NCBI RefSeq assembly: GCF_031128465.2
Contig: NZ_CP155618.1
Span: 1,931,501 to 1,995,500, forward strand
DNA length: 64,000 nucleotides
Source of the DNA: Mariniflexile litorale
GTDB taxonomy: Bacteria; Bacteroidota; Bacteroidia; Flavobacteriales; Flavobacteriaceae
Reading direction: 5' to 3'
Program-made: the position numbers and the translations under genes
Notes under the pieces: model-generated
The model's input: only the letters and a program-made list of their open reading frames with translations
Databases searched by the model: none
What the model was told of the DNA's origin: nothing
Shown here: positions 11,732-21,194 of the stretch, in pieces
Position numbering within the stretch: position 1 is the stretch's first letter
Layout: each line of letters begins with the position of its first letter

Positions 11732-14700
11732 TTATGCTATTGTTAGTTCTTCTACCATTTGTTCTTCAGTCTCTAAGCGTATTAATGCTTTTTTATATTC
11801 GGTAGGCATCACTTTTACAAAGTTTTTTAAACTAGTTTCCCAGTTTGCTAATAATTCTTTACCTCGGTTACTATTTGTGTACTGAACGTGGTTTTTAATT
11901 AATGCTTTCAAATCTTGAGCATCTTCATTTAAAACTTCTTCAAATTCTATAGTTTCGGTATTACATAAACCGTTTGTAAATTTGTTTTCAGGGTCGTATA
12001 CATATGCGATACCACCACTCATACCTGCAGCAAAGTTTCTTCCAGTTTTACCAAGTACTACCACTTTACCCCCAGTCATGTATTCACAACCATGATCTCC
12101 AAGACCTTCTACAACAGTAATTGCTCCAGAGTTTCTAACAGCAAAACGTTCACCAGCAATTCCGTTAATATAAGCTTCACCTTGAATAGCACCGAATAAA
12201 CAAACATTACCAACAATGATGTTGTTTTCTGCAATAAAATCGGCTTTTACAGGTTTTTTAATAATCAATTTAGCACCAGATAATCCTTTTCCTAAATAAT
12301 CGTTGGTGTTTCCTTCTAAAGTAAATGTTAATCCATTTGCTCCAAAAGCTCCAAAACTTTGACCAGCAGATCCTGCAAAGTTTACATTAAGTGTATCTTC
12401 TGGTAAACCTAAATGGCCATATATTTTTGATATTTCATTACTAACTATAGCGCCCACAGTACGGTCTGTATTGTGTATGGGGTATACTAAAGTCATTTTC
12501 TCTTTTCTATATAAAGCGCGGTGAGAATCTTTTAAGATTGTAAAATCAAGAACGTCATCTAAATTATGGTCTTGTTTTTCAGTGTTTTTAACAGTCATAA
12601 GCTTATAAGCTTCTGGTCTGTGTAAAATAGCCGATAAATCTAAGCCTTTAGCTTTATAGTGGGTGATTGCTTTATTAGCGTTAATTTTATGAGTTTGACC
12701 AACCATTTCTGCAAGCGTTCTAAACCCTAATTGTGCCATAATACCTCTTAATTCTTCAGCAATATAGTAGAAGAAGTTAATAACGTGTTCTGGTGTGCCT
12801 TTAAAGTTTTTACGTAATTCTTTATCTTGAGTTGCAATCCCTACTGGACATGTATTTAAGTGACACTTACGCATCATAATACAACCAGAAGCTACAAGAG
12901 GAGCGGTTGCAAAACCAAATTCTTCTGCACCTAATAAGGCTGCAATAGCAACATCACGACCTGTTTTTAATTGGCCATCACATTCTACAACAATACGACT
13001 TCTTAGGTTGTTTAAAACCAACGTTTGCTGTGCTTCGGCTAAACCAAGTTCCCAAGGTAAGCCAGCATGTTTTAGTGATGTTAAAGGAGAAGCTCCTGTT
13101 CCACCATCATACCCAGCAATTAATACCACATCGGCTTTGGCTTTTGCTACCCCAGCAGCAATAGTACCCACACCAACTTCTGATACCAATTTTACATTGA
13201 TTCTCGCTTCACGATTCGCGTTTTTTAAATCGAAAATTAATTGTGCTAAATCTTCAATGGAGTAAATATCGTGATGCGGTGGTGGCGAAATTAATCCTAC
13301 GAACGGGGTGGAATTACGAACTGCAGCAATCCAAGGGTAAACTTTTTCTCCAGGTAATTGTCCACCTTCACCAGGCTTCGCTCCCTGAGCCATTTTTATT
13401 TGAATTTCCTTCGCGTTAGTTAAATAATGTGATGTTACTCCAAAACGACCAGAAGCTACTTGTTTAATAGCCGAGTTACGACTATCACCATTTAAATCTG
13501 GGTGGAAGCGTTTTCTATCTTCTCCACCTTCACCAGAGTTCGATTTACCACCAATACGGTTCATCGCAATGGCTAAGTTTTCGTGTGCTTCTCTAGAAAT
13601 AGATCCGTAAGACATGGCGCCCGTTTTGAAACGTTTCACTATATCTGTCCATGGTTCTACTTCTTCTAAAGGAATTGGGTCTAATTTATCAAATTCGAAT
13701 AACCCACGAATGGTCATTAAATTTTCAGCCTGTTCGTTTATTGCTTTTGCATATACATCATAACTGGCTTGGTCACTTAACCTAACAGCTTGTTGTAATT
13801 TAGAAACCGTAGTTGGGTTAAACATATGGCGTTCACCATTACGTCTCCATCTATAGTCTCCACCAATATTTAAACCTAGACGTTTGTCTATTAAGTTGTC
13901 TGGATAGGCGTATTTATAACGCTCCGTAATTTCTTTTTCAATTTCATATAATCCGATACCTTCAATTCTAGAAGCTGTATATGGGAAGTATTTTTCAACA
14001 AACTGAGAACTGAAACCAACTATTTCGAAAATTTGAGAACCTCTATATGAATGAAGTGTAGAGATTCCAATTTTATTCATGACTTTTAAAATACCAGAAC
14101 CAATAGCTTTGTTGAAGTTATTAACCGCTTTTTGTTCATCCATACCTGTGATGAAGCCTTCTTTTACTTGTGATCTAATAATTTCATTTACCATATATGG
14201 ATTAATAGCACTAGCGCCATAACCAAACAAGGTAGCAAAATGATGTGGTTCACGTGGTTCTGCCGATTCTATAATGATATCGAAATAAGAACGCTTACGT
14301 AAACGGTTCATTTGATGATTTACATAAGAACAAGCTAATAGAGCAGGTATAGGTGCAAATTCTTTATTAACACCTCTATCCGATAAAATGATGATGTTTG
14401 CGCCTTTATCAAGAGCTTTAGAAACTTGAATAATCATATTTTCTAAAGCATCTTCTAGACCGTTAAGACCTTGTGCTTTTGGATATAAAATATGAATAGT
14501 TTCTGCTTTAAATCCTTCTATTGATATGCTTCTTATTTTTTCTAAATCGTCATTAGAAATAACAGGGTTTTGAATTCTTAATTTTCTACACTGTCTTTCT
14601 GTAATGCTGAAAATGTTTCTATCTTTTCCAAGATTTAAACTAATATCTGTTACAATTTCTTCTCGGATACCATCTAAAGGAGGGTTGGTAACTTGGGCGA

Positions 14701-16255
14701 ATAATTGTTTGAAATAATTTGAAATTAATTGCGGTCTGTCGGATAATACAGCCAAAGGTGTATCAATACCCATAGAACCTAAAGCTTCTTTTCCCGCAAC
14801 TGCCATAGGTGTAATAACCTCTTGTATATCTTCGAACGTATAATTAAATAAACGTTGTCTTGTTTTGATATCAATGGTTTCTATCGGGCAAGTTTCGTTG
14901 GTGTAAGGCACATCTTTTAAATGTAAGCGTGTTTCATCTAACCATTTTTTGTAAGGTCTTTCAGAAACAATTTTACTTTTAATCTCCTCATCTTCAATAA
15001 TTCGCCCTTTGTTCATGTCTACCAAGAACATTTTTCCTGGCTCTAATCTACCATGTCTTTCTACATCTTCTGGAGCAATTTCTACCACACCAATTTCCGA
15101 AGCCATAATTAATTTACCACTTTTGGTAATGGTATATCTTGAAGGTCTTAAGCCATTTCTATCAAGTAAAGCACCGATATAATCACCATCTGTAAATGGT
15201 ACCGATGCAGGACCATCCCAAGCTTCCATAATACAAGCATTGTATTCGTAAAATGCTTTACGTTCTGGAGACATGGTTTGGTGTTTTTCCCATGCTTCTG
15301 GAATCATCATCATCATAATTTCTGGTAAAGACCTGTCGGTATGAGTTAACAACTCAACCACCATATCCATAGAAGCAGAATCTGATTTTCCTGGTAATAT
15401 AATTGGAAATAATTTTTCTATTTGAGGTCCGAAAACGTCACTTTTCATAATTTCTTCACGCACACGCATTCTACTTACGTTACCACGAAGGGTGTTTATC
15501 TCACCATTTTGACACATAAAACGGAACGGTTGTGCTAGTTCCCAGGTAGGCATCGTGTTGGTAGAGAAGCGTTGGTGAACTAGTGCTAAACGCGTTACCA
15601 AATCTATTTGTTGTAAATCGGTATAATAAGGCCCAATATCTTCAGGCATGATAATACCTTTATAAATAAGAGTTGTTGTAGATAAACTTGGTAAATAAAA
15701 ATAACCACTTTCAGAAATTTTAGATTTTCTAATAGCATGTTCTGTAATTTTACGGGCAGCAAATAATTTAGCTTTAAAAACAGCTTCAGTTATATCTTCT
15801 GTTTTTCCAATAAAAATTTGTTCTATATTAGGCTCTGAAGCCAATGCAATTTCTCCTAATTGAGTAGAATCTACAGGTACGTGACGCCATCCTAGTATAG
15901 AAAGGCCTTGTTCTTTTATCTCTTTTTCAAAAGTATCTTTGCAAAATTGATATTGGTTAGGTACTTTGGGTAAAAATACCATACCTACAGCGTATTCTCT
16001 TTGTTCAGGAAGATTAAAACTACATACGCGTTTAAAATAATCGTGAGGAATATCAATTAACAAACCAGCCCCATCCCCGGTTTTTCCATCAGCACTTACA
16101 CCACCTCGGTGCTCTAACTTTACTAGAATTTCTAACGCATCGTGAATAATTTGATTTGTTTTCTCTCCTTTAAGATTACAAATAAAACCTGCACCACAAT
16201 TTTCGTGTTCGAATTCAGGTAAATACATTCCTTGTTTCTTCAGCATAATCAACAA
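11732..16255 (-). CDS. gltB: Glutamate synthase large subunit
   Basis: Makes two glutamates from glutamine and 2-oxoglutarate; it works with gltD and takes over ammonium assimilated by glutamine synthetase. The 1507-residue length is normal. The glutaminase domain begins at Cys20 (HENCGAGFICN), which would become the N-terminal nucleophile after loss of a short propeptide. The FMN synthase domain is in the middle, and the 3Fe-4S cluster ligands are seen as C-x5-C-x4-C in CIMMRKCHLNTCPVG (near residue 1130). The C-terminal beta-helix has repeated G-x-x-G motifs. The start may be Met1, Met4 or Met10. Confidence 0.96.
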   Translation of the reverse strand: MLIMLKKQGMYLPEFEHENCGAGFICNLKGEKTNQIIHDALEILVKLEHRGGVSADGKTGDGAGLLIDIPHDYFKRVCSFNLPEQREYAVGMVFLPKVPNQYQFCKDTFEKEIKEQGLSILGWRHVPVDSTQLGEIALASEPNIEQIFIGKTEDITEAVFKAKLFAARKITEHAIRKSKISESGYFYLPSLSTTTLIYKGIIMPEDIGPYYTDLQQIDLVTRLALVHQRFSTNTMPTWELAQPFRFMCQNGEINTLRGNVSRMRVREEIMKSDVFGPQIEKLFPIILPGKSDSASMDMVVELLTHTDRSLPEIMMMMIPEAWEKHQTMSPERKAFYEYNACIMEAWDGPASVPFTDGDYIGALLDRNGLRPSRYTITKSGKLIMASEIGVVEIAPEDVERHGRLEPGKMFLVDMNKGRIIEDEEIKSKIVSERPYKKWLDETRLHLKDVPYTNETCPIETIDIKTRQRLFNYTFEDIQEVITPMAVAGKEALGSMGIDTPLAVLSDRPQLISNYFKQLFAQVTNPPLDGIREEIVTDISLNLGKDRNIFSITERQCRKLRIQNPVISNDDLEKIRSISIEGFKAETIHILYPKAQGLNGLEDALENMIIQVSKALDKGANIIILSDRGVNKEFAPIPALLACSYVNHQMNRLRKRSYFDIIIESAEPREPHHFATLFGYGASAINPYMVNEIIRSQVKEGFITGMDEQKAVNNFNKAIGSGILKVMNKIGISTLHSYRGSQIFEIVGFSSQFVEKYFPYTASRIEGIGLYEIEKEITERYKYAYPDNLIDKRLGLNIGGDYRWRRNGERHMFNPTTVSKLQQAVRLSDQASYDVYAKAINEQAENLMTIRGLFEFDKLDPIPLEEVEPWTDIVKRFKTGAMSYGSISREAHENLAIAMNRIGGKSNSGEGGEDRKRFHPDLNGDSRNSAIKQVASGRFGVTSHYLTNAKEIQIKMAQGAKPGEGGQLPGEKVYPWIAAVRNSTPFVGLISPPPHHDIYSIEDLAQLIFDLKNANREARINVKLVSEVGVGTIAAGVAKAKADVVLIAGYDGGTGASPLTSLKHAGLPWELGLAEAQQTLVLNNLRSRIVVECDGQLKTGRDVAIAALLGAEEFGFATAPLVASGCIMMRKCHLNTCPVGIATQDKELRKNFKGTPEHVINFFYYIAEELRGIMAQLGFRTLAEMVGQTHKINANKAITHYKAKGLDLSAILHRPEAYKLMTVKNTEKQDHNLDDVLDFTILKDSHRALYRKEKMTLVYPIHNTDRTVGAIVSNEISKIYGHLGLPEDTLNVNFAGSAGQSFGAFGANGLTFTLEGNTNDYLGKGLSGAKLIIKKPVKADFIAENNIIVGNVCLFGAIQGEAYINGIAGERFAVRNSGAITVVEGLGDHGCEYMTGGKVVVLGKTGRNFAAGMSGGIAYVYDPENKFTNGLCNTETIEFEEVLNEDAQDLKALIKNHVQYTNSNRGKELLANWETSLKNFVKVMPTEYKKALIRLETEEQMVEELTIA

Positions 16256-16284: not shown

Positions 16285-16314
16285 CTAAGATATAACCTTG
16301 TTCTTGAATAACAA
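16285..16314 (-). promoter_or_regulatory. Predicted promoter of gltBD
   Basis: On the minus strand a TTG (16314-16312) is followed after exactly 19 bases by TATCTTAG (16292-16285), one mismatch from TAnnTTTG. A CCCCTA half-site of the nitrogen palindromes described at 16561 and 16613 lies just upstream of the TTG, at 16315-16320. The 450-base divergent region 16256-16707 contains this promoter, the two palindromes and the porin promoter; I see no further gene in it. Confidence 0.5.
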
Positions 16315-16560
16315 TAGGGGGTAATTCATTATTTCGATTTTAGAAGCGAAGTTTGACTAAAAATAATTATATGTTAATAATAAAGACATTTTTTATTAAA
16401 TACTCAACACCTATTATTATAGAATAATGTGAATTACTGAAATTATGCTAATAATAATTCGCTTTAACAAAAATAAAACCATTAAAAATTAGAAAATACT
16501 GACGATAATACAATTAAACCATTTAACAAAAAATCAAAAAAGATCAAAAAACACAACACA

Positions 16561-16577
16561 CCCTATAAAAAATAGGG
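16561..16577. promoter_or_regulatory. Palindrome CCCTA-N7-TAGGG, distal copy upstream of porin/amt
   Basis: CCCTATAAAAAATAGGG, a perfect 6-base-arm inverted repeat. Its centre is about 53 bases (five helical turns) from the centre of the second palindrome at 16613-16631 and about 91 bases upstream of the predicted porin transcript start. Likely a protein-binding site; the regulator is unknown. Confidence 0.5.
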
Positions 16578-16612
16578 TTAAAAATGAAATATTCGTAAAA
16601 ATAAATCAAACA

Positions 16613-16631
16613 CCCCTATTTTTAATGGGGG
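16613..16631. promoter_or_regulatory. Palindrome CCCCTA-N7-TGGGG, proximal copy at the porin promoter
   Basis: CCCCTATTTTTAATGGGGG, an inverted repeat similar to the copy at 16561. It covers the place where a -33 box would be for the porin promoter (-7 element at 16647), and no TTG is present there. That arrangement fits an activator that binds around -38 and replaces the -33 contact. A repressor overlapping the promoter is the alternative. Confidence 0.5.
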
Positions 16632-16646
16632 TTAAGTTTTTTTATA

Positions 16647-16654
16647 TAGTTTTG
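16647..16654 (+). promoter_or_regulatory. Predicted -7 element of the porin-amt operon
   Basis: TAGTTTTG, a perfect TAnnTTTG. There is no TTG 19 bases upstream; a palindrome occupies that position. The predicted start is near 16660, giving a leader of about 48 bases. Confidence 0.55.
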
Positions 16655-16707
16655 AAGCATTCTTAAGGAACATAACTAATAAATCAATAACTTAAAATTT
16701 AAACATT

Positions 16708-17697
16708 ATGAAAAAATTAATAACTCTTTCAATGCTTTTTATGGCTACGGTAGTAATTGGTCAAGAAGAAACTCCTACTAAAAAAGTAAGCATAGGCGGT
16801 AGTGTAGATGCATACTATCAAACTTACTTGACAGCTCCCGATAATATTGGAGCTTCTTTTGGTTCTTCTTTTGCCGAACAAACTGGATTCGCTTTAGGTA
16901 TGGCAAATATTATTGCCACATATGAAGGAGAAACAACAGGTGCTGTTGCAGATTTAGCATTTGGGCCTAGAGGTGTAGGTGCTGTTGGTGGAGATGAAAG
17001 TATTTTTATAAATCAATTATATGCTTACTGGAATGTATCAGAAAGCACTAAATTAACCATGGGTCGTTTTAATACGTTTTTAGGATATGAGGTTATATCT
17101 CCTGTAGCTAATTTTAATTACAGTACTTCTTATTTGTTTTCCAATGGACCATTTTCTCATGTGGGTTTAAAAGCTGATTTTGCTTTATCTGATGATTTTA
17201 GTCTAATGTTAGCCGTTATGAATGAGACTGATGTTAATAATAATATGTCTGGTGATTATTCACTAGGAGCTCAATTTGGATATGCTGGACAATTCTTAAA
17301 TTTTTACTATGCGAATGTAGGCCTTGGTTTTGAAGTAGATTACACAGGTGGGTTTGATTTGTCCGATTCTTTCTTCTTAGGTATCAATGCTGCTTATGCT
17401 GACAATGATGGTGAAGGATTTATGGGAGCTGCGCTTTATCCACAAGTAGCTACCTCTGATAATTTTTCAATTGGTTTAAGAGGTGAATTTTTTGACTGGT
17501 TAAGTGATGCAGATTCTAGTGTAGATGATCAAGATGTTTTTGCTGTTACTTTAACAGGAAGTTATACTCTTGAAAACTTAATAATCAAACCAGAATTACG
17601 TTTAGATAGTAATTCTCAAGAAGTATATTCAGATAATGACTTAGCTCCTACTAAAAGCTTAGCCGCTTTTACTTTGGCTGCTATTTACTCTTTCTAA
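16708..17697 (+). CDS. Outer-membrane porin-like beta-barrel protein
   Basis: A 329-residue protein with a signal peptide (MKKLITLSMLFMATVVIGQ, cleaved before EETP). The mature part is made of amphipathic strands, many with GAL, GLK or GIN turns, and ends in an aromatic residue (FTLAAIYSF), as outer-membrane barrels do. The general form fits the OmpL-like porin family (BBP2). It lies 101 bases upstream of amt on the same strand and has a promoter with nitrogen-region palindromes, so it is probably a channel that helps nitrogen compounds cross the outer membrane. The substrate is inferred from context only. Confidence 0.75.
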   Translation: MKKLITLSMLFMATVVIGQEETPTKKVSIGGSVDAYYQTYLTAPDNIGASFGSSFAEQTGFALGMANIIATYEGETTGAVADLAFGPRGVGAVGGDESIFINQLYAYWNVSESTKLTMGRFNTFLGYEVISPVANFNYSTSYLFSNGPFSHVGLKADFALSDDFSLMLAVMNETDVNNNMSGDYSLGAQFGYAGQFLNFYYANVGLGFEVDYTGGFDLSDSFFLGINAAYADNDGEGFMGAALYPQVATSDNFSIGLRGEFFDWLSDADSSVDDQDVFAVTLTGSYTLENLIIKPELRLDSNSQEVYSDNDLAPTKSLAAFTLAAIYSF

Positions 17698-17727
17698 GAA
17701 TGAAATAAAACACAACAATCAAATAAA

Positions 17728-17770
17728 GAAAATAAAGCAATTCAACATTAAATTGTATTGCTTTATTTTC
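17728..17770 (+). other. Intercistronic stem-loop between porin and amt
   Basis: Perfect 14-base stem (17728-17741 with 17757-17770) around a 15-base loop. No T-tract follows, so it is probably an RNA stability or partial read-through element rather than a full terminator. Confidence 0.5.
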
Positions 17771-17798
17771 TCTAACTAACCCTTAAAACTTTTTATTT

Positions 17799-19100
17799 AT
17801 GTCAATATTTAACATGCCCCTTATAATTCAAGATGCCACAGCTGTTGAAGTCCTTGCAGAATCTGTGAAAGGCGACATGGGAATGCTTTGGATGCTTATA
17901 TCTGGTATTTTAGTATTCTTTATGCAAGCAGGATTTTTCTTGGTAGAATCTGGAATGACTGATTCTAAAAATGCGGTTAACATCGCCATGAAAAATTTCC
18001 TAGACATCGCAGTAGGCTCACTAGCCTTCTGGTTTATTGGATATTCATTAATGTATGGCGCTGATGCCTCAGGTGGTTTCTTACACTGGGGAGGTTTTAC
18101 CTTTTCTCAAGGTGCTGCCGATTTATTCTTTCAAACTGTATTTGCTGCTACTGCTGCTACCATCGTGTCTGGAGCTATTGCAGGTAGAACAAAGTATACA
18201 ACCTATGCTATTTTTAGTATCATCATGACGGCTCTTATCTATCCAATCGCTGGTGGATGGGAATGGAATGGTGGATGGCTAAACAATACAGATATTATGC
18301 CTGCTGAATTTATCGATTTCGCTGGATCTTCAATTGTTCACTCTGTAGGTGGATGGGCTGCATTAGTTGCTGCTTGGATGGTTGGTCCTAGAATTGGTAA
18401 ATACTTAAACGGTAAACCAATTGAAATGCACGGTCACAATCAAATGTATGCTACTTTAGGTGTATTTATCCTTTGGTTAGGATGGTTTGGTTTTAATGGT
18501 GGTTCTCAATTAGCTTGGGGTGGTGCGGATTCTGATGCTGCTTCTCAAGTAGTACTTGTTACCAATTTAGCTGCTTCAGCTGGAGCTTTAGGAGCTTTGT
18601 TGTTTACTTGGTTTAAAAATGGAAAACCAAACTTAGGTATGACATTAAATGGTGCACTTGCTGGTCTTGTAAGTATTACTGCTGGTTGTGGAAACATGAC
18701 AGAAGGTGGTGCAGTTTTAGCTGGTCTAGTAGGTGGATTACTTGTAGTATTATCTATAGGATTTGTAGAAAAAACATTAAAAGTTGATGATGCTGTAGGT
18801 GCTATTTCTGTACACGGTGTAGCTGGCGCTTGGGGAACCTTAGTTATAGGTCTTTGGGGTGTTGATGGCGATGCTGGTATAGGATTATTTAATGGTGGAG
18901 GCGCTGCTCAATTAGGAGCTCAAGCTATTGGAGTTTTAGCTTATGCCGTATGGTCTATAGGTCTTTCTTACATCTTCTTACTTATTTTGAAAAAGACTAT
19001 TGGCTTAAGAGTTTCTGAAGCTGAGGAAATAGCTGGACTAGACATTTCCGAACACGGTTCTTTAGCTTACCCTGGTAAGAGACAAAGAGAAATAGATTAA
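17799..19100 (+). CDS. amtB: Ammonium transporter (first copy)
   Basis: A 433-residue inner-membrane Amt/MEP/Rh channel with 11 expected helices. Both pore histidines are present, in SSIVHSVGGWAALVAAW and AISVHGVAGAWGTL. Other family signatures are TKYTTYAIFSIIMTALIYPIAGGWEW and LWLGWFGFNGGSQL. The N-terminus (IIQDATAVEVLAES) precedes the first helix and could be a short exported segment. It belongs to the porin operon and is followed by a palindromic repeat and then a P-II gene. Confidence 0.95.
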   Translation: MSIFNMPLIIQDATAVEVLAESVKGDMGMLWMLISGILVFFMQAGFFLVESGMTDSKNAVNIAMKNFLDIAVGSLAFWFIGYSLMYGADASGGFLHWGGFTFSQGAADLFFQTVFAATAATIVSGAIAGRTKYTTYAIFSIIMTALIYPIAGGWEWNGGWLNNTDIMPAEFIDFAGSSIVHSVGGWAALVAAWMVGPRIGKYLNGKPIEMHGHNQMYATLGVFILWLGWFGFNGGSQLAWGGADSDAASQVVLVTNLAASAGALGALLFTWFKNGKPNLGMTLNGALAGLVSITAGCGNMTEGGAVLAGLVGGLLVVLSIGFVEKTLKVDDAVGAISVHGVAGAWGTLVIGLWGVDGDAGIGLFNGGGAAQLGAQAIGVLAYAVWSIGLSYIFLLILKKTIGLRVSEAEEIAGLDISEHGSLAYPGKRQREID

Positions 19101-19120
19101 ATTTTAAAAATAAAAAATCA

Positions 19121-19260
19121 AAAAGAGGCTGTTTGAAAAGTGTTATTCTGAGTCATATTGAGCCTGTCGAAATATTCAAACTTACTGATAATCCATATCA
19201 GTTTCGACAAGATCAACCTGACAAAGTAAATAAAATACACTTTTCAGATAGCCTCTTTTT
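19121..19260. repeat. 140-base palindromic repeat element downstream of amtB
   Basis: Outer arms AAAAGAGGCTGTTTGAAAAG (19121-19140) and an imperfect complement (about 19236-19260, ending in GCCTCTTTTT). Nested inside are complementary GTCGAAA and TTTCGAC segments and an apex at about 19183-19203. Related arms (CTGTCTRAAAA, GACAGCC) occur in the element at 30377-30496. The T-rich end may also stop amtB transcription. It carries no coding capacity. Together with the palindrome at 19470 it explains most of the 492-base gap 19101-19592. Confidence 0.7.
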
Positions 19261-19469
19261 AGATTTATGAAACTAAAATTATTTAGAAAACTTTATTGAA
19301 TTGGATTATATCCTAATTATAAAAAATTGAAGCCATTATTAAAAAATATAAATTTTGAGTAGTCAACTTAATATTCAAGAATATAGCGTGGAATCATATT
19401 CATATTTTAAGCTAAACGATATAACTAATATCAATATTTAATAATTAAATTGATTTTTATTAAAAGTAT

Positions 19470-19486
19470 CCCTAAATTTTTAGGGG
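19470..19486. promoter_or_regulatory. Palindrome CCCTA-N6-TAGGG upstream of the first P-II gene
   Basis: CCCTAAATTTTTAGGGG is similar in arms and spacing to the two palindromes upstream of the porin operon. Its centre is about 92 bases before the predicted P-II transcript start, the same distance as the distal porin copy. The arms extend to AAAGTA and TACTTT and a T-run follows, so a terminator hairpin is the main alternative, although no gene ends nearby. Confidence 0.4.
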
Positions 19487-19556
19487 TACTTTTGTTTTTT
19501 TATCATTTATTACAACATACACCCTTTCATTTTGCCCCCTTTGTTAAATTATTTTC

Positions 19557-19564
19557 TATTTTTG
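19557..19564 (+). promoter_or_regulatory. Predicted -7 element of the P-II/amt pair
   Basis: TATTTTTG, a perfect TAnnTTTG. A TTTG at 19531-19534 lies 22 bases upstream, slightly farther than usual. The start codon follows after 28 bases. Confidence 0.5.
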
Positions 19565-19592: not shown

Positions 19593-19931
19593 ATGAAGAA
19601 AATTGAAGCAATTATTAGAAAATCTAAATATCGTGTAGTTAAAGAAGCTTTACATGAAATTGGTGTAAATTTTTTCTCCTACTGGGATGTTACTGGTATT
19701 GGAAATGAAAAAGAAGGACATGTTTACCGTGGCGTATCTTATAGCACAAGCGATATTCAACGCAGGCATTTAGCCATTGTAGTAAATGATGATTTTGAAG
19801 AAGTAACTGTACAAGCCATTCTTAAATCTGCTGGCACAGGTGAAGTTGGAGATGGTAAAATTTTTGTATCTGATATCAATAATTGCTACCGAATTAGGAC
19901 TGGAGAAAAAGGTGGAGACACTTTAAAATAA
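19593..19931 (+). CDS. P-II nitrogen regulatory protein (first copy)
   Basis: A 112-residue GlnB/GlnK-family signal protein. The N-terminus MKKIEAIIRKSK and the C-terminal block GDGKIFVSDINNCYRIRTGEKG are the family signatures; the latter includes the ATP-binding arginines. The T-loop (about residues 37-58, GNEKEGHVYRGVSYSTSDIQ) differs strongly from the enterobacterial RGAEYMVDFLPK. Tyr50 sits where uridylylated Tyr51 would be. The neighbouring amt genes show it is of the GlnK type, expected to block ammonium channels when nitrogen is plentiful. It is separated from the second amt gene by only 30 bases. Confidence 0.93.
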   Translation: MKKIEAIIRKSKYRVVKEALHEIGVNFFSYWDVTGIGNEKEGHVYRGVSYSTSDIQRRHLAIVVNDDFEEVTVQAILKSAGTGEVGDGKIFVSDINNCYRIRTGEKGGDTLK

Positions 19932-19961: not shown

Positions 19962-21194
19962 ATGGAATTACTTACAACAAATAATGTATGGATGATGATC
20001 TGTACAGCACTTGTGTTTTTTATGCACTTAGGGTTCTCTCTTTTAGAAATAGGATTAACGAGACAAAAGAACACGATTAATATTTTATTTAAAAACATTT
20101 TTATAATAACCATTGGGTTGCTTCTTTATTGTGTAGTAGGATTTAATTTAATGTATCCAGGAGATTTTAACGGATTTTTAGGTTTTGCTGGATTTGGTTT
20201 GGATTCGCCATTAACAGCTGAAGGTGTATTAGATTTAACATATAACGAGGGTTATACGTATTGGACAGACTTCTTATTCCAAGGTATGTTTGCTGCTACT
20301 GCTGCTACCATTGTTTCTGGTGCGGTTGCAGAGCGTATTAAAATTGTACCATTCATGATTTTTACAGTAATTTATGTAGGGTTCGTTTACCCAATTGCTG
20401 GATCTTGGAAATGGGGTGGTGGATTTTTACAAACTTTAGAAACTCCTTTTTATGATTTTGCAGGTTCTACCTTAGTACACTCTGTTGGTGGATGGGCAGC
20501 TGTTGTTGCTGTTTGCTTATTAGGCCCTCGTATTGGTAAATTTAAAGAAGGAAAACCACAAGCAATTCCTGGACATAACATTCCATTAGCAACTACTGGG
20601 GTTTTAATTTTATGGTTAGGATGGTTCGGATTTAATGGAGGTTCTGTGCTTTCTGCAGATCCAGGATTAACATCATTAACGCTTGTAACTACATGTTTAG
20701 CAGCTGCGGCTGGTGGTGTAGTAGCTATGTTAGTTTCTACAGCTATGTACAAAAACTTAGATTTAACGATGTTCTTAAATGGTATCTTAGGGGGTTTAGT
20801 TGGTATTACTGCAGGAGCTGACCAAATGAGTCCAACCGATGCTATTTTAATAGGTGCTATTGCTGGTGCTCTAATAGTTTTTGCTGTGTCTTTTATTGAT
20901 AAATTAAAATTAGACGATCCAGTTGGTGCTATTGCAGTTCACTTAGTATGCGGTATTTGGGGAACTTTAGCAGTAGGTATTTTTGGAGATTTAGCAGGTG
21001 TAGATCAGTTTATTAGCCAATTAATTGGTGTTGGTGCTTATGCTGTATTCTGTATAGTAACTGCATTTATTATCATTTTTACACTTAAGAAAACGGTGGG
21101 AATACGTGTTTCTGAAAAAGAAGAATTAGAAGGATTGGATGCACACGAACATGGTATGGATGCATATCCAGACTTTAGATTGAATGAGCATTAA
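19962..21194 (+). CDS. amtB: Ammonium transporter (second copy)
   Basis: A 410-residue Amt channel. Both pore histidines are present (STLVHSVGGWAAV and AIAVHLVCGIWGTL), with the conserved PIAGSWKWGGGFL and LWLGWFGFNGGSVL segments. It shares the architecture but not the detail of the first copy, so the pair is not a recent tandem duplicate. It lacks an obvious signal peptide and begins directly with a membrane helix. It forms an operon with the preceding P-II gene and ends at a strong terminator. Confidence 0.95.
   Translation: MELLTTNNVWMMICTALVFFMHLGFSLLEIGLTRQKNTINILFKNIFIITIGLLLYCVVGFNLMYPGDFNGFLGFAGFGLDSPLTAEGVLDLTYNEGYTYWTDFLFQGMFAATAATIVSGAVAERIKIVPFMIFTVIYVGFVYPIAGSWKWGGGFLQTLETPFYDFAGSTLVHSVGGWAAVVAVCLLGPRIGKFKEGKPQAIPGHNIPLATTGVLILWLGWFGFNGGSVLSADPGLTSLTLVTTCLAAAAGGVVAMLVSTAMYKNLDLTMFLNGILGGLVGITAGADQMSPTDAILIGAIAGALIVFAVSFIDKLKLDDPVGAIAVHLVCGIWGTLAVGIFGDLAGVDQFISQLIGVGAYAVFCIVTAFIIIFTLKKTVGIRVSEKEELEGLDAHEHGMDAYPDFRLNEH

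Follow-up and report, generated by a model that had tools for sequence, protein, structure and literature searches.

Which operator, and which protein acting on it, governs nitrogen assimilation in the Flavobacteriales is the question raised by a 64,000-nucleotide stretch of Mariniflexile litorale DNA (NZ_CP155618.1, positions 1,931,501 to 1,995,500; hereafter the window, with positions counted from its first letter). Three similar palindromes lie in it, two at the promoter of a porin gene followed by an ammonium transporter gene (porin-amt) and one at the promoter of a P-II gene, and an earlier note on this DNA had read them as the binding sites of a nitrogen or energy-state regulator that probably activates. 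In open-licence PubMed Central articles we found no transcriptional nitrogen regulator, operator or such motif named for the Flavobacteriales. Judging from conserved sequence, spacing and promoter position across many genera, we conclude that the palindromes are probably operators at which a single dimeric, sequence-specific DNA-binding protein controls the nitrogen assimilation of this order, and that this dimer would act as an activator from near -91 and -38.

Three palindromes of one form

The palindromes that the earlier note had claimed at 16561, 16613 and 19470 are all present there, and in one register they share a common form, a CCC-N11-GGG dyad with an A/T-rich core. At the porin-amt promoter, the putative far operator is the full dyad CCCTATAAAAAATAGGG (16561-16577, centre 16569; second-ranking place of the window and conserved in relatives), and the putative near operator is the full dyad CCCCTATTTTTAATGGGGG (16613-16631, centre 16622; 17-bp register 16614-16630), which ranks first and lies over the -33 region. 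Their centres are 53 bp apart, the spacing that the note had given and also that found in relatives. The putative far operator of the P-II promoter, CCCTAAATTTTTAGGGG (19470-19486, centre 19478), is likewise a full dyad; it is the lowest-scoring of the three and doubles as a terminator-like hairpin.

A refined palindromic profile of 27 bp, trained on 106 upstream regions (76 of porin, 30 of glnN) and with 9 bits or more counted as a site, recovers a site in 100 of these same 106 training regions, against 3 for the reversed and a mean of 1.0 for shuffled regions; 7 of 60 porin upstreams are without a site. Because this profile was trained on the regions on which it was tested, the window was scanned with a separate 27-bp profile whose letters come from 26 glnN-promoter sites of other genera only, the register of these sites having been fixed earlier, jointly with porin sites including the window's own. 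The three best places of the whole window are exactly the three palindromes, at 25.9, 23.3 and 17.5 bits with the next at 12.7, while 200 first-order Markov simulations give 0, 0.005 and 0.135 expected hits per 64 kb at these scores. Within the window, the palindromes are thus found in this block only, as had been claimed. They are a real observation, beyond chance: the bare pattern is common, as would be expected of chance palindromes in an A/T-rich genome, but this explanation is scarcely credible given the site in 100 of the trained regions, the recovery of the window sites by the independent glnN profile, and a CCC half kept at a fixed offset; the fixed dyad spacing in unrelated promoters, described below, already excludes it.

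A fixed promoter geometry

Across many related species, dyad pairs lie 52-54 bp apart in all 63 cases scored (porin 47, P-II 9, glnA 3, glnN 2, and 2 at the alanine dehydrogenase gene ald), a count in which a glnA/glnN pair may be entered from both genes. Where an exact TAnnTTTG box was found, we measured the phase from the dyad centre to the start of the box, obtaining 25-27 and 78-80 bp for porin promoters (plus five cases at 69-70), 25-26 and 78-79 bp for P-II promoters, and 24-26 and 77-78 bp for glnA promoters. In Flavobacterium psychrophilum the box is placed at -12 to -5 (PMC9723704), and the dyads therefore fall near -38 and -91. In the window, the porin -7 box is TAGTTTTG, of the TAnnTTTG form (16647-16654, plus strand; predicted start about 16659), with the far dyad 78 bp before it, and the P-II -7 box is TATTTTTG (19557-19564, plus strand; predicted start about 19569), with its dyad 79 bp before it. 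The phase thus gives about -37 and -90 for the porin sites and about -91 for the P-II copy, in good agreement with the earlier placing of the near porin site at the -33 box, the far one at about -91 and the P-II copy at about -92. As far as can be judged from TAnnTTTG, whose distance to the dyads is fixed at porin, P-II and glnA, these are not promoters of the sigma-54 type; sigma-54 sites were not scanned for separately.

The two halves of the near site are kept to very different degrees. In single-dyad porin, P-II, glnA and ald promoters (n=19), the position 53 bp downstream of the dyad keeps CCC in 17 and GGG in none, with control offsets at 1% each; the window's P-II promoter is of this kind, with a CCC half-site, the upstream half only, at the near position (19522-19524, plus strand). 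In two-dyad promoters (n=61), the arms that face inward are without a mismatch in 58 and 59 cases and those that face outward in 49 and 55. Furthermore, several promoters carry a full dyad solely upstream, at -83 to -91. These features bear on the sign of regulation. A repressor using the same operators could sit over the -33 region when nitrogen is plentiful, with cooperative binding or a short loop contributed by the far dyad, and the near dyad does overlap that region. The promoters whose sole full dyad is at about -83 to -91, and the tolerated loss of the promoter-side half, make this rather unlikely. An activator is suggested instead, because such solely upstream dyads lie too far off to block polymerase and because the near site gives up its promoter-side half.

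Genes preceded by the motif

In each genome (genomes, loci and families are given by our labels in G, L and f), 150 first-look candidates were scored with the profile, and over all genomes together chosen stretches were inspected (20, then 40, some of them known sites), so that regulon membership as given here is a lower bound. In the M. litorale genome, a single contig of 4.52 Mb, exact CCCTA-N7-TAGGG occurs at four places, the porin site among them; predicted frames overlap all of the remaining three, with none observed before a nitrogen gene. With one mismatch allowed, the bare pattern occurs 48 times against 34 for the reversed-pattern control per strand, a modest excess. With the full profile, and 150 of 4061 first-look candidates scored, the first two ranks go to the porin sites, the 5th to the glnA/glnN site and the 10th to the P-II site; of the six places ranked between these nitrogen sites, four are inside frames, one falls where two genes converge and one belongs to a repeated element.

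In relatives, the motif lies upstream of porin-amt, P-II-amt, glnA/glnN, ald, other amt genes and gltB, both glutamine synthetase genes, the type III glnN and the beta-grasp glnA, carrying it. The best-scoring place of a genome precedes a nitrogen-assimilation gene in 12 of the 14 genomes of a first set and in 11 of the 22 that gave any hit in a second set (25 searched). The motif is thus not equally common upstream of unrelated genes; equal frequency there was an outcome that the earlier note, which had called for scans of this and related genomes, named as one that would count against its reading. Sites outside the training set were found at ald in four genomes (G015, G019, G031, G016; the gene of G031 checked with Pfam), at amt in three (G017, G015, G033; that of G017 checked with Pfam), at P-II-amt in G008, and at P-II in eight (G038, G023, G006, G026, G016, G031, G036, G020). 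At gltB, sites were found in four genomes (G031, G016, G023, G020), the dyad being 281-287 bp upstream of the gltB start.

Bare patterns were rejected as a search tool for being too noisy, most extra places in the M. litorale genome lying in coding frames, repeats and terminator-like spots. Over 31 genomes the loose pattern gave 201 forward against 86 reversed-pattern matches, and 7 of 20 hand-picked loose-pattern stretches lie at nitrogen genes, which makes it a poor predictor by itself.

As for taxonomic range, a glnN-promoter site of at least 13 bits is present in 12 of 22 further Flavobacteriales genomes, spread over six families (f1, f5, f7, f9, f10, f13) and including the small genomes G044, G045 and G057 of 1.6-1.7 Mb, and in 0 of 18 genomes outside the order, where the best score is 11.1 bits. 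Among the genomes below 13 bits at glnN (G049, G055, G059, G052, G028, G027, G038, G079, G111, G164), several have a half-site.

The 19470 hairpin, the gltB side and neighbouring features

The palindromes share their block with a plus-strand series of genes for a porin-like outer-membrane protein (BBP2, 16708-17697), an ammonium transporter (amt1, 17799-19100), a first P-II protein (19593-19931), a second ammonium transporter (amt2, 19962-21194) and a second P-II protein, with gltB, for the large subunit of glutamate synthase, on the minus strand (11732-16246, likely start ATG at 16246). The ammonium transporter of the block is 96% identical to that of M. fucanivorans.

RNA folding gives the 19470 copy a stem of 15 bp (-18.1 kcal/mol, z -5.9) with a T-run after it, as in an intrinsic terminator. 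That it is a transcription terminator only and no operator, the second outcome that the earlier note had named as speaking against it, is consistent with this hairpin and with its place as the weakest of the three window sites, but is nonetheless unlikely: it keeps the operator position, with the same phase to the P-II -7 box and the same CCC at +53 as other P-II promoters, and in five genomes (G008, G038, G023, G026, G016) the P-II promoter has a pair of dyads spaced by about 53 bp. Because the copy folds as a terminator-like hairpin yet keeps the position of an operator, a double role is possible, in which it may also end transcripts. Separately, a long and highly stable hairpin lies between amt1 and the P-II gene (19118-19264, plus strand; -56 kcal/mol, z -10.3; arms AGAGGCTGTTTGAAAAGTG and CACTTTTCAGATAGCCTCT), which looks like a repeat-type terminator element.

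On the gltB side, the earlier note had pointed to a half-site beside the gltBD promoter. CCCCCTA is indeed present (16315-16321, minus strand), but it is not conserved in the gltB upstreams of relatives, few of which have a CCCC run there (by eye, for example L049-L051 and L085), and we excluded it from the system; it probably lies in the gltB leader. A different link is suggested by the element GTCAGTATTTT, which lies 62 bp past the far porin dyad toward gltB and is, by eye, conserved between the window and the loci L049 and L106. Because of this element, the far dyad may serve gltB too, in which case the gltB leader would be about 240 nucleotides long. The conserved TATTTTC at 16492-16498 (minus strand; 71 bp from the far porin dyad, by eye in the same three loci) may be the -7 box of gltB, with a predicted start at about 16486. 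Within what is presumably the leader of gltB, the stretch AAAATCGAAATAATGAA (16315-16355, minus strand) recurs in many relatives' gltB upstreams and might serve as a further control element or as leader RNA.

Three elements apart from the nitrogen genes were also seen. The window contains a Flavo-1 RNA (Rfam RF01705; 52091-52170, plus strand). Outside it, CACTAACCGAGATAGGG forms a tandem repeat of five copies at 234-bp steps (G000:C1:1922897-1923849), and CCCTTTTTATAAACGGG occurs at 10 places in the M. litorale genome, one of them (L131) inside a frame that by eye resembles a group II intron reverse transcriptase.

Search for the regulator

The regulator was sought among the MerR, CRP and Lrp families and none was identified, in a search that did not extend to NarL/LuxR, LysR, LytTR or any other family. 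No conserved regulator lies beside the nitrogen cluster, save a penicillinase-repressor-type gene (PF03965) that stands with an antiporter gene beside glnN in 5 of 119 loci (L144, L146, L147, L149, L180), a large membrane protein being encoded next in L144, L146 and L147. The motif was met at regulator genes in single cases, namely an HTH-3 frame in G023 (L403) and a LytTR response-regulator gene in G006 (L383), where a 26.9-bit site, in the stretch at about 1448-1530, lies 65 bp before the predicted start. CRP-family genes are present in all 12 genomes searched, and among those inspected none had a nitrogen link, including the three of G010.

A short MerR protein of the MliR type, acting like TnrA or GlnR of Bacillus, would fit the arm spacing of the palindromes, since the spacing in the TGT-N11-ACA sites of these regulators equals that of CCC-N11-GGG, and such a protein is found in 13 of 13 motif-positive genomes. 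We consider it improbable as the regulator: outside the order, 6 of 8 genomes have a short MerR frame as well, and a comparison of recognition regions, limited to clean rows, shows a similar one in the MerR proteins of G138 and G061, whereas glnN promoters outside the order are without the site. Moreover, a Bizionia argentinensis mliR mutant grown in rich marine broth is reported to affect iron genes (PMC9478572).

An AsnC-like protein of the Lrp family has a small chance of being the regulator. One subgroup (L356 in the M. litorale genome) was found in 6 of the 7 motif-positive genomes tested, and in the tree a long branch separates it from its relatives outside the order; in G019, a different Lrp gene is close to ald. 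On the other hand, the subgroup is missing in G008 (80% complete), no motif was seen at Lrp genes, and the recognition region is little changed between groups; 21 of 41 rows were left out of the second Lrp tree. We also noted an Lrp-family gene 18-24 kb from glnN in three genomes (G000:2730178, G010:C6:49868, G017:C22:150750).

Discussion

Overall, the conserved sequence, spacing and promoter position argue for an operator near -38 and -91 at nitrogen-assimilation promoters, much as the earlier note had proposed, with the sign of regulation deduced from the layout. Several findings weigh against this picture. Strong matches also lie inside genes, in repeats or at terminator-like places; 75 of 90 P-II upstreams are without a site; the glnN phase is scattered, from 26 to 154 bp, and single-dyad glnN upstreams (n=21) have CCC at +53 in 2 cases and GGG in 2; 10 of the 22 further genomes of the order have no scored site at glnN; and the search among the three protein families named above yielded no regulator. 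It is also possible to reconcile a repressor with the -38 position. As to the P-II upstreams without a site, 60 of the 75 follow amt within 300 bp, and of the remaining 15, which have no amt in front, six or seven follow a porin gene (by eye) and three score 12.1-12.4; the site is weak or absent in L044, L095, L119, L125 and L126.

For the activator that we favour, one dimer would occupy the strong full dyad at about -91, and another dyad, or its upstream CCC half alone, would be used around -38, on the same DNA face at a distance of five helical turns downstream. This near site overlaps the -33 region of promoters of the primary-sigma type and can lose its promoter-side half, and the dimer bound there may help RNA polymerase from beside the sigma factor, assisted by the far dimer through contact with polymerase or with the near dimer. 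The protein would be switched on by nitrogen limitation, nitrogen being proposed as the signal because of the genes preceded. The motif allows genome-based prediction of nitrogen-regulated genes in the Flavobacteriales, its fixed geometry makes it a ready bait for isolating the regulator, and it offers a well-defined system in which to study how the phylum's unusual promoters are activated.

Comparable responses and layouts are known elsewhere. In Prevotella ruminicola 23, from another order of the same phylum, the corresponding genes amtB, glnK, glnN and gltBD are induced together under limiting ammonium, and the accessible portion of that report names no operator or regulator for the response (PMC5552732). 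Dyads upstream of nitrogen genes are also a feature of NtrC with sigma-54, whereas here a primary-sigma -7 box stands at a fixed distance from the dyad. Lrp/AsnC proteins regulate gltBD and ald in other bacteria and thus share similar target genes, along with an A/T-rich core, but no link between them and this motif emerged here.

The operator of TnrA and GlnR, which belong to the MerR superfamily in Bacillus, is TGTNA-N7-TNACA. It shares with the present motif an odd-centred 17-bp dyad whose core is A/T-rich and whose arms are separated by 11 bp, and its targets include amt-P-II and glutamine synthetase genes. Its arms are TGT and ACA as opposed to CCC and GGG, so that the present sites do not have the form of a TnrA/GlnR operator; the fixed double layout at -91 and -38 is a further difference, and the only short MerR candidate extends beyond the range of the motif.

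The proposed working mode resembles that of CRP and NtcA. Cyanobacterial NtcA has glnA, glnN, amt and P-II genes as targets, and tandem CRP promoters of Escherichia coli have an activator site by the -35 region and a second about 52 bp upstream. The CRP/NtcA-type layout, a site near -41.5 with an optional second about 52 bp further upstream, is matched here by sites at about -38 and -91 spaced 52-54 bp apart; this match bears on the working mode and not on the protein family, for the site sequence is different and the G010 CRP-family genes show no connection with nitrogen. We tentatively entertain, as an idea somewhat short of even chances, that the Flavobacteriales have a nitrogen master regulator of their own, from a family new to nitrogen control, in which two dimers would be joined across five turns with the inward half-sites essential and RNA polymerase replacing the outer half of the near site. 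If so, this regulator would take the role that NtcA, NtrC or GlnR has elsewhere.

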